In this document: positions 20,493 to 47,846 of the stretch, piece by piece
Position numbering within the stretch: position 1 is the stretch's first letter
Layout of the letters: every line of letters begins with the position of its first letter
Assembly: GCA_015207195.1 (NCBI GenBank)
Contig: JADEXJ010000001.1
Coordinates: 1 to 64,000 of the forward strand
DNA from: Pleurocapsales cyanobacterium LEGE 10410
Lineage (GTDB): Bacteria; Cyanobacteriota; Cyanobacteriia; Cyanobacteriales; Xenococcaceae
Direction of reading: 5' to 3'
Length of the DNA stretch: 64,000 nucleotides
Program-made: the position numbers and the translations under genes
Notes under the pieces: generated by a model
What the model saw: the letters and a program-made list of their open reading frames with translations, nothing else
Told to the model about the DNA's origin: nothing
Database searches by the model: none

Positions 20493-20542
20493 CTGCCCTA
20501 TCCTAAAGGATTCCCTTCGGTCAAGGATTAGCTAGCGCGTCG
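20493..20542 (+). repeat. Palindromic dispersed element, copy inside the octamer array
   Basis: It contains CCTAAAGGATTCCCTTCGG followed by TCA, which occurs in the opposite orientation in the insert at 47758-47830. It lies between two blocks of the same GAGATGGG-type array, so it probably inserted into that array. Confidence 0.6.
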
Positions 20543-42885: not shown

Positions 42886-42983
42886 TCCACAGATGAACAC
42901 GGATAAACACAGATGGGTTTGTTGGTTGGTATCGAGATTAGTGTGTTATGGTTTGATGATTTGTGTTTTGTGCTTTTGATGGG

Positions 42984-43388
42984 ATGAGTCGTAGTCAAGC
43001 GGATTTGAATGATTTGACACAGAAAATTATTGGTTGTGCTTTTGAGGTGAGTAATGTTTTGGGTTGTGGTTTTCTGGAGAAGGTTTATGAAAGAGCCTTG
43101 GTACGAGAATTGAGCATAGCTGGATTAGATGTCCAGGCTCAATATCCCATATCTGTTTACTATAAAAAAACAGTTGTCGGTAACTTTTTTGCCGATATTT
43201 TAGTTGAAAAATCTATTTTAGTAGAACTTAAAGCCTTAAACTCTTTAGAAAATAAACATCAAGCACAGTGTCTTAACTACCTCAAGGCTAGTGGCTTAAA
43301 CCTCTGTCTGCTTATCAACTTCGGTCAACCAAAAATTCAAATAAAAAGAATTATCCAAAACCCACAAACAAACACAACCCACAGATAA
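42984..43388 (+). CDS. GxxExxY family protein (PD-(D/E)XK nuclease-like)
   Basis: A 134-aa protein. ATG 42984 is preferred; a GTG 7 codons upstream is possible. The namesake motif is GFLEKVYERAL, followed by LVRELSIAGLDVQAQYPISV. The restriction-nuclease-like core is VGNFFADILVEKSILVELKA (Asp ... Glu-x-Lys), and the usual end is NYLKASGLNLCLLINFG. Family function is unknown; the core suggests a nuclease fold. The gene lies entirely inside inverted repeats and its end (TNTTHR-stop) runs into the right arm. Confidence 0.85.
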   Translation: MSRSQADLNDLTQKIIGCAFEVSNVLGCGFLEKVYERALVRELSIAGLDVQAQYPISVYYKKTVVGNFFADILVEKSILVELKALNSLENKHQAQCLNYLKASGLNLCLLINFGQPKIQIKRIIQNPQTNTTHR

Positions 43389-43406
43389 CCCCATCTGTGT
43401 TCATCT

Positions 43407-43482
43407 TCTTGATGCAGTCCTAAAGGATACACCTTCGGATATCGCTCTAAGAAGGAAACCTTCAAGACCGCGCTGCATCGCT
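43407..43482 (+). repeat. 76-nt palindromic insert in the right arm of the GxxExxY cassette
   Basis: It begins TCTTGATGCAGT and ends GCATCGCT; GATGCAG and CTGCATC form short terminal inverted repeats. Inside are GAAGG-AAA-CCTTC followed by AAGACCGC. It splits the repeat between ATCT and GTGTT at the same point as the 73-nt insert at 47758-47830. Confidence 0.7.
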
Positions 43483-44307
43483 GTGTTCATCTGTGGACAC
43501 GATCAAAGTCAAACCAGCTAAAAAAATCAATCCCATTACTCCCGCGATCGGATTCCCATCAATACCCGTAACCCAAACAGGAACGCGATCGCTATACTCA
43601 ATCAATTCACCAACATTAACAATATAGTAGCCCCAGACCAACCCCCCGTGGATGCCGATACAAATTCCCAAGCGATCGCCATGCCGATATTTAGCCAACA
43701 CCAAAGCTATTCCCAATAAAACTAAAGCAGGAAAAGTTACCGCAGTGCGGATAATTTCTGTAATTGGCTTGAGAAAGTGAGCTAAGGCAAAGATAGTAGC
43801 ACTAAGATAAATGCAGGTTTTTTTGTCGTAATCTCGCTGTAATTCGTCTAATAGCCAGCCACGAAACAGTAATTCTTCTGCTAAACCAATGCCCACCGCA
43901 CTCAACCAGCCTTCAACCACAATCTTTAGCAAACTAGCCGAGGGTGTAGTAACCTCAATCCAACCTAATAGTGCTTCGACAATAAACAAGCCCAAACAAA
44001 ACCATAAGCCAATTGCTAAACCCTTAAGAAACTCTTGGCTATTTCTGCTACTTCTTACTAAACCGTAGCGAGCAAAAATATGTGCTTCATTGTGTACCGA
44101 TTTGCCCCAAAATCTCCAGAAAAATAGCAACTCAACAAACAGCAAAGCCATAGTTAAAATGCTAGCGAGATTGGAATCGTAACGCAGTAGCCAATAAATC
44201 GGAATTGCTAATGGCAGCCATAAAATAGACAAAACACCAATGAAAATTAACAATCTCACTGGTGCTGTAAAACTCGATATTTTCCGCAAATCTGGTGTAA
44301 TTGGCAA
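43462..44307 (-). CDS. CPBP family intramembrane glutamic endopeptidase
   Basis: A polytopic membrane protease of 281 aa (Abi/CAAX-processing type). TTG start; no ATG fits and the ribosome site is weak. Motif 1 is EELLFRGWLLDEL (Glu-Glu-x-x-x-Arg, about residues 145-157), motif 2 FALAHFLKP, motif 3 HGGLVWGYY. About eight hydrophobic segments. It lies 29 bp after clpS and is probably co-transcribed. Oddity: the last 11 residues (STDEHSDAARS) are encoded by the dispersed repeat and its insert, so the original C-terminus has been replaced or extended. Confidence 0.85.
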   Translation of the reverse strand: MPITPDLRKISSFTAPVRLLIFIGVLSILWLPLAIPIYWLLRYDSNLASILTMALLFVELLFFWRFWGKSVHNEAHIFARYGLVRSSRNSQEFLKGLAIGLWFCLGLFIVEALLGWIEVTTPSASLLKIVVEGWLSAVGIGLAEELLFRGWLLDELQRDYDKKTCIYLSATIFALAHFLKPITEIIRTAVTFPALVLLGIALVLAKYRHGDRLGICIGIHGGLVWGYYIVNVGELIEYSDRVPVWVTGIDGNPIAGVMGLIFLAGLTLIVSTDEHSDAARS

Positions 44308-47741: not shown

Positions 47742-47846
47742 CCATCTGCGTTTATCTTCTTGATGCAGTTGCTCATGGGGGAAACCCCCAAGACCGCACG
47801 TGACCGAAGGGAATCCTTTAGGGCATCGCTGTGTTCATCTGCGGAC
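47742..47846 (+). repeat. CATCTGTG-family repeat split by a 73-nt palindromic insert
   Basis: The left arm is CCATCTGCGTTTATCT (47742-47757), the insert 47758-47830, and the right arm GTGTTCATCTGCGGAC (47831-47846). The insert carries TGGGGG-AAA-CCCCCA followed by AAGACCGC and, near its end, an AAGG-GAAT-CCTT hairpin. There is no GxxExxY gene here. Confidence 0.7.

Follow-up and report, generated by a model that had tools for sequence, protein, structure and literature searches.

A mobile hairpin element of ~51 nt accounts for two palindromic inserts in decamer arrays of a Pleurocapsales cyanobacterium

The window analysed here, a stretch of 64000 nt from Pleurocapsales cyanobacterium LEGE 10410 (assembly GCA_015207195.1, contig JADEXJ010000001.1, positions 1–64000, forward strand), contains two palindromic inserts, hereafter insert 1 and insert 2, both being copies of a single, very small mobile element (~51 nt) found in many cyanobacteria. 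The outer and inner stems of this hairpin element drift in their letters while complementarity stays, and the folded shape counts more than the letters. The element is mobile, as filled and empty matching sites are found in tandem repeats, at the palindrome HIP1 and sometimes in reading frames. Our best reading, and probably the right one, is that both inserts represent a repeat of the small dispersed repeat (SDR) kind, moved in trans through a folded single strand.

A preliminary description had placed the inserts at 43407–43482 (76 nt) and 47758–47830 (73 nt), and re-reading of the letters confirmed these sizes and coordinates, the letters common to both (TCTTGATGCAGT first, GCATCGCT last and AAGACCGC inside) and the position of both inserts at ATCT|GTGTT of a repeat, which is an array of the 10-bp unit CATCTGTGTT. 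The inner stems were also as described, GAAGG-AAA-CCTTC for insert 1 and GGGGG-AAA-CCCCC for insert 2, the difference being limited to two of the five pairs. The view that loop and flank had been kept while the arms changed was correct for the 3′ flank, but not for the 5′ flank (CTCTAA compared with CTCAT). The near-equal lengths of 76 and 73 nt are a coincidence, with a different nested repeat (24 and 23 nt respectively) present in each insert; without the nested repeats, the units are 52 nt (insert 1) and 51 nt (insert 2).

In the window's subfamily, the 51–52-nt unit reads KTCTTG, arm, T, YGC-TC, inner stem, AAGACC-GCR, arm′, CGC; it is made up of a variable-sequence outer stem (P1), a bulged T, a middle that is invariant and an AAA-looped inner stem (P2). 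The core GGAAACCNNCAAGACCGC gave 29 matches in the genome (24 exact and five with one mismatch; none for the reversed control), two of the one-mismatch matches (L033 and L034) looking unrelated. Among these matches, the outer arms varied around one unit (gatgcag/ctgcatc, cgacaa/ttgtcg, gttagt/actaac, ggcatt/aatgcc and others). The outer stem was then compared in 116 distinct sequences anchored on middle letters only (YRCTY ... AAGACCGC), a set that includes at least two chance rows without an inner stem and was drawn from 168 sequences in which some genomic copies were counted twice owing to overlapping loci. Outer pair 5 was paired in 95 of the 116 sequences (shuffle mean 55.5) and outer pair 6 in 38 (shuffle mean 36.4). 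Pairing of the outer arms thus stops sharply after five pairs, so that the stem is part of the element and not of its surroundings. Covariation was found at outer pairs 1, 3, 4 and 5 and at the Y-R pair, with pair 4 occurring as GC (52), CG (26), AT (15) and TA (5); pair 2 was a nearly constant A-T (105 paired; shuffle mean 100). The bulged T beside the outer stem, a base that the search had left free, was present in 112 of the 116 sequences.

The compensatory change first noticed between the two inserts extends to the family, and the checks put forward in the preliminary description turned out in its favour. In alignment A1 (102 distinct fragments, three having been dropped for want of a recognisable loop), both sides had changed in 174 base-pair cells compared with a shuffled mean of 43, and none of 500 shuffles reached this value. 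The paired cells amounted to 92.4% compared with 78.5% in the shuffles, and the covariation score was 0.353 compared with 0.106. These shuffles are uncorrected for kinship among the copies; the slid controls, which retain kinship, gave 10 to 45 both-side changes. Less marked were the number of pairs with a both-side change (eight compared with 6.7, with 85 of the 500 shuffles as high) and that of further pair types (24 compared with 20.7, with 41 of 500 as high). The inner stem was less variable than the outer stem, in part because the searches had fixed inner-stem letters, and its two middle pairs showed 14 and 17 both-side changes. Its variants (GGGGG/CCCCC, GAAGG/CCTTC, GTTGG/CCAAC, GACGG/CCGTC and GTGGG/CCCAC) come from searches other than the exact inner-stem search that yielded 119 stretches of named records. 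Compared with the counted structure, the RNAalifold consensus omitted pairs 8-43, 11-41, 12-40, 13-39 and 20-32 and added 10-41, 14-36 and 15-35; both-side changes had been counted at two of the omitted pairs, 8-43 (two cells) and 11-41 (31 cells). Of the added pairs, 14-36 and 15-35 (TC/GA) were also present in the fold of the simple copy L021, leaving a bulged CC, and their letters showed no covariation.

Evidence of movement came from matching sites with and without the element. The 51 nt of L021 are not present in the paralogues C219 and C143 or in the relative from genome G010; they add 17 codons in frame (AMQRGLGGFPHERLHQE) at a HIP1 palindrome of the reading frame, and the empty site of C219 is an intact HIP1. 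Similarly, the 51 nt of L025 are not present in the paralogue C368. L021 and L025 are the only frame insertions proven by empty relatives, while an open frame of at least 130 codons ran across the core at 12 of 27 own-genome loci (among them L033, an apparent chance match), and for some own-genome copies the open frame runs in the opposite orientation. Unfilled decamer arrays were found in the same genome with the upstream flank of L010 (L212) and with that of L015, L018 and L029 (L210 and L222), and in genome G001 the array orthologous to that of insert 1 (locus L228) consists of two decamers without the insert. DNA matching the neighbourhood of each insert site was present in all 13 same-genus genomes, the window's own included, and among the 11 relatives fetched per insert no blastn match extended to the element at the orthologous position. 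These empty paralogous and orthologous sites show that the hairpin element inserts.

The junctions were examined in eight tandem-repeat hosts (seven heptamer and one decamer), where up to three bases before and two bases after TCTTG...CGC were compared as boundaries. In all eight, removal of the unit alone brought the flanks back in register, the best unit being TCTTG...CGC plus one base in six hosts and plus two bases in the other two (L038 and L106). With only one or two bases beyond TCTTG...CGC, the target duplication is at most one T. Among 67 distinct copies of the TCTTG subfamily, a T directly followed the unit in 63 and a pyrimidine directly preceded it in 64; the unit stood directly after CGATCGC in nine, others being in heptamer and decamer arrays.

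The common insertion site that the preliminary description had envisaged was found in part: eight of the copies read from the genome interrupt their decamer array at one shared point, whereas other copies lie elsewhere, and most of the copies printed from this genome and from named records are not in decamer arrays. The two-decamer pattern with at most one mismatch had 107 matches in the genome, a number in which overlapping registers of one array are each counted (reversed control, 0), and CATCTGTG was observed eight times in the window compared with 1.24 expected. The features of the two sites in the window are as follows.

43392..43496, + strand: host array of insert 1, (CATCTGTGTT)n, split after ATC (43405).
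43406..43481, + strand: insert 1, 76-nt copy of the hairpin element, TTCTTGATGCAG...CTGCATCGC; the edge is ambiguous by one T, hence 43407–43482 in the preliminary description.
43413..43417, + strand: 5′ arm TGCAG of outer stem P1 of insert 1, from P1 covariation; folds with 43473–43477.
43418, + strand: bulged T of insert 1.
43419..43442, + strand: nested second repeat of insert 1, CCTAAAGGATACACCTTCGGATAT, beside the bulged T; predicted to form its own arm of a three-way junction.
43451..43463, + strand: inner stem P2 of insert 1, GAAGG (43451–43455), loop AAA, CCTTC (43459–43463), from letters, covariation and fold.
43464..43472, + strand: constant 3′ side of insert 1, AAGACC and GCG (the latter pairing with CGC 43443–43445); invariant in A1, where AAGACCGC was a requirement of the underlying search.
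43473..43477, + strand: 3′ arm CTGCA of outer stem P1 of insert 1, from covariation and fold.
47743..47844, + strand: host array of insert 2, with the same split point as for insert 1.
47757..47829, + strand: insert 2, 73-nt copy of the hairpin element (47758–47830 in the preliminary description).
47777..47789, + strand: inner stem P2 of insert 2, GGGGG, loop AAA, CCCCC, from letters, covariation and fold.
47800..47822, − strand: nested second repeat of insert 2 (GTGACCGAAGGGAATCCTTTAGG on the + strand), which breaks the 3′ arm of P1.

Covariance model R1, which had both inserts among its building sequences, matched insert 1 at 43433–43481 (48.8 bits) and insert 2 at 47760–47807 (53.6 bits). 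In its predicted fold as single-stranded DNA, insert 1 kept both stems intact around a three-way junction (−15.6 kcal/mol; z −3.81), and a similar z of −3.9 was obtained for the simple copy L021. For insert 2, in which the 3′ arm of P1 has one T fewer than in simple copies, the outer stem was not formed in the predicted fold (z −1.66). The outer stem of insert 2 is therefore broken at rest while pairing in the family is kept, which points to a role of the hairpin in movement rather than in place. Of the two possibilities raised in the preliminary description, selection for a hairpin or movement through a hairpin form, the latter thus fits better and a hairpin selected in place fits less well.

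The nested inserts belong to a second repeat family of ~24 nt, CCTAAAGGA followed by TACACCTTCGGATA, TACCGCTTCGCATA or TTCCCTTCGGTCAC, found in the window at 20502, 43419–43442 and 47800–47822. Those of inserts 1 and 2 are relatives in opposite orientation, located in the 5′ and 3′ parts of the outer stem respectively. L015 has neither, L018 and L029 have the second and L010 has both; the repeat seen at 43419–43442 is also present at the same place in L011. This second family shows apparent matched stem changes of its own (CCTTCGG and GCTTCGC). As a separate observation, further insertions lie within or close to the inner stem of L182, L183, L191 and L192, some of them containing CTTGCACC..., a hint of a third small repeat family sitting in hairpin loops.

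Further copies were found with R1 (150 candidates scored per genome): the window's genome yielded 33 matches, and of the 27 genomes in the same family 25 had matches. The core pattern was present in 25 of 60 genomes, the window's own included (24 of 27 in the family and one of 33 outside it), while a search of 386 genomes gave 11 with a match, at least four of them unrelated sequence (L158, L163, L164 and L165). In named records the exact core occurred in at least 119 stretches, and all 80 among the matches listed are cyanobacteria by name. The carriers include Nostoc, Calothrix, Scytonema, Moorena, Okeania, Xenococcus, Pleurocapsa and Crocosphaera, with the core in a Nostoc punctiforme record (L113). 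After 18 of 123 copies near stretch ends had been left out, eight of the 105 named copies were in a frame of at least 150 codons and 97 were outside such frames. With one copy as the query, no phage record and four plasmid records matched.

As to known systems, Elhai and colleagues reportedly described in 2008 eight families, SDR1–SDR8, of small dispersed repeats in Nostoc and its relatives, 21–27 nt long, three of which are said to have a common secondary structure backed by compensatory changes; SDRs are also said to occur in heptamer arrays and nested in each other. Judged by these features, the hairpin element would be of the same kind: it is very short and dispersed, its structure is kept by compensatory changes (kinship uncorrected) and its copies are nested and found in tandem heptamers. 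The recent mobility of SDRs is matched by its filled and empty sites. It differs in that the movable unit, with the outer stem, is 51–52 nt rather than 21–27 nt. Since many of the named records listed are Nostoc, the hairpin family could well be identical with a named SDR family. SDR5 is not known outside HIP1, and most TCTTG-subfamily copies lie away from that palindrome (the nine of 67 directly after CGATCGC apart), so we did not file the family as SDR5. In PMC4390886, SDR5 is stated to insert between nucleotides 3 and 4 of HIP1, and the L021 insertion can be placed exactly there by comparison with C219, a single site at which placement is ambiguous within the repeated ATCGC. The SDR work of 2008 is cited in PMC4390886, PMC3116915 and PMC3733652.

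REP/REPIN elements are also short, palindromic, multicopy and non-autonomous; in PMC3733652 and PMC3116915 they are described as GTAG-tagged, linked to RAYT transposases and, for REPINs, as hairpin-forming with a putative transposition intermediate. The hairpin element differs from what is described there in its nested insertions and in the weak relation of its number to that of Y1 transposases. A GTAG-tagged REP was rejected, as A1 and the junctions revealed no GTAG at the stem foot and instead TTGA/GTTC-like feet, with TCTTG and CGC in the window's subfamily. A miniature inverted-repeat transposable element with terminal inverted repeats and target duplication was likewise rejected, as at most one T is duplicated in 8/8 tandem hosts, the HIP1 sites being ambiguous. 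The palindromic elements of Rickettsia, according to PMC10969869, are ~150 bp long, with many in genes and inserted in frame into unrelated genes. They share with the hairpin element the palindromic repeat and in-frame gene insertion (L021 and L025), whereas the latter adds 17 codons and is in long frames in eight of 105 named copies. In the cyanobacterial literature searched, core and peptide strings were not found in print, the sole match being unrelated.

We propose that the unit, too short to code for a mover, would depend for its movement in trans on a protein of the cell or of a transposon. The mover would recognize a folded single strand through the bulged T, the constant middle and the ends, not through the stem letters, and would join the element between a pyrimidine and a T. 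If only foldable copies spread, the stems would stay paired across the lineage, whereas resting copies would be free to decay or to take nested inserts. Insertion sequences probably carry some of the copies, and decamer-array copies may spread by exchange between arrays. Some copies lie within ~1–2 kb of transposase genes; L001 adjoins a reading frame that we take from its translation to be ISL3-like and L005 one that we take to be TnpB-like. It is also conceivable, although we consider it improbable, that each move rebuilds the hairpin by fold-back copying of one arm on single-stranded DNA, followed by joining at Y|T without target duplication; the outer arms would then be a self-templating pair, and the bulged T, constant middle and ends a recognition code. 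In that case the element would replicate at the level of DNA and, with ~51 nt, lie at the lower bound of mobile-element size. Elements as short as ~50 nt come close to the minimum for mobile DNA. With matched filled and empty sites, a measured unit, the Y|T junction, which lacks clear duplication, and a covariance model, the moving form (DNA or RNA, and which strand) and the mover become testable. In-frame insertion at HIP1 is, in addition, a route for 17-codon peptides into cyanobacterial proteins.

Several observations weigh against movement of an SDR-kind repeat in trans through a folded strand. In all eight decamer-array copies it is the second decamer that is occupied, a pattern accounted for equally well by targeting and by shared descent or gene conversion. 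Formally, the filled HIP1 site, ATCGC...ATCGC, also allows a unit of 46 nt and a 5-bp direct repeat, a reading to which the array copies give no parallel. A nested insert beginning with GTGACCGAAGG is found at one outer-stem point in six copies from two kinds of host (window position 47800, L010, L018 and L029; L014 and L017), suggesting that copies with a broken stem may still multiply, perhaps through repeat-to-repeat exchange or as passengers on insertion sequences. Comparison with Y1 transposase and reverse transcriptase matches in 27 genomes, kinship being ignored, identified no mover: the element number was only weakly related to either (rho 0.37, p 0.055 and rho 0.38, p 0.048 respectively), and the window's own genome has 33 R1 matches and two Y1 matches. 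Finally, G-T wobble, as expected of folded RNA, was not enriched among mismatches. In P1 of 91 clean copies (of 114 distinct; at least 5/7 P1 and 3/5 P2 Watson–Crick pairs, a filter that itself lowers the mismatch count), 608 cells were Watson–Crick, four G-T, 13 A-C and 12 other. The lack of G-T enrichment mildly favours DNA over RNA as the folded form. In a comparison aimed at the folded strand, A-C and G-T mismatches over both stems numbered 28 and five, but the searches had fixed the 3′ side of several such pairs; in the five outer P1 pairs plus the Y-R pair the printed rows gave six A-C and four G-T.

Among the alternatives, we regard as a real possibility, if the less probable one, that array and element spread as a composite, moved together by recombination or gene conversion rather than by repeated insertion at one target. 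An upstream flank of ~48 nt is indeed common to L015, L018 and L029, the upstream flanks of L011, L032 and insert 2 appear by eye to be diverged versions of it, and 8/8 filled arrays use the second decamer. However, at least three clearly different upstream flanks can be told apart by eye (that of insert 1, that of L010 and the rest), two of the flanks also occur unfilled in the same genome (L212; L210 and L222) and the array of insert 1 is unfilled in G001. Most printed copies, moreover, are outside decamer arrays. This explanation can hold for the arrays with the element still mobile. Paired stems could also arise by hairpin-templated mutation (quasi-palindrome correction), in which replication copies one arm from the other and neither selection nor hairpin-dependent movement is needed. 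The excess in A1 of the 174 both-side changes over the eight cells changed on one side and still forming a standard pair would fit this process, as would the mostly Watson–Crick pairs of P1. We nevertheless think it unlikely, as indiscriminate arm correction should erase the bulged T, which was kept in 112/116 sequences (an argument made on the T itself, the rest of the asymmetric middle having been required by the search), and as it leaves filled and empty sites unexplained.

A structured RNA with a regulatory or processing role, maintained at every site through selection on its transcripts, would account for two stems with a GAAA-like loop and for the 97/105 named copies outside frames of at least 150 codons. 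It is very improbable in our view, given that Rfam gave no match over the window at the gathering score, nor around insert 1 at E values up to 1, that G-U is not enriched, that the orthologous sites of 11 relatives per insert gave no element match, that the outer stem of insert 2 is broken and that some copies are in opposite-orientation open frames. Hardly more probable is a miniature derivative of a classical insertion sequence with terminal inverted repeats and target duplication. The element is palindromic and multicopy, some copies lie ~1–2 kb from transposase genes and the 5-bp ATCGC repeat at HIP1 is readable as a duplication; the duplication is, however, at most one T in 8/8 tandem hosts, and the arms, with their many outer-stem sequences, form no fixed inverted repeat.

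With regard to the surroundings of the inserts, insert 1 has as neighbours a PDDEXK_3 nuclease-like gene (42963–43388) of the GxxExxY type and a CAAX protease-like gene on the − strand. A tblastn search with the PDDEXK_3-like protein, covering the window plus 30 of the genome's decamer loci, returned the protein itself and no relative. Insert 2 is neighboured by a thioredoxin-like gene and an inositol monophosphatase-like gene, and no tRNA was found in the window. The contigs C182, C194 and C209 have their first bases inside an element copy, with identical flanks, which points to assembly breaks caused by copies of the element that lie on a multicopy sequence. A similar left flank, ..A(A/T)ATTACA(T/C)CA(C/T)TG, precedes the element in L014, L017 and the named copies L043 (Xenococcus) and L080 (Xenococcaceae), and the right flank TTCTT(G/A)ACTGAAG is common to L014, L017 and L080 but not L043; these flanks are possibly those of one mobile host element. 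The CAAX protease-like open frame (43462–44307, − strand) crosses the decamer array and has its stop inside insert 1. At 42888–43496, the PDDEXK_3 nuclease-like gene is flanked by inverted decamer arrays (42888–42914 on the − strand and 43392–43496 on the + strand) in a cassette-like arrangement.
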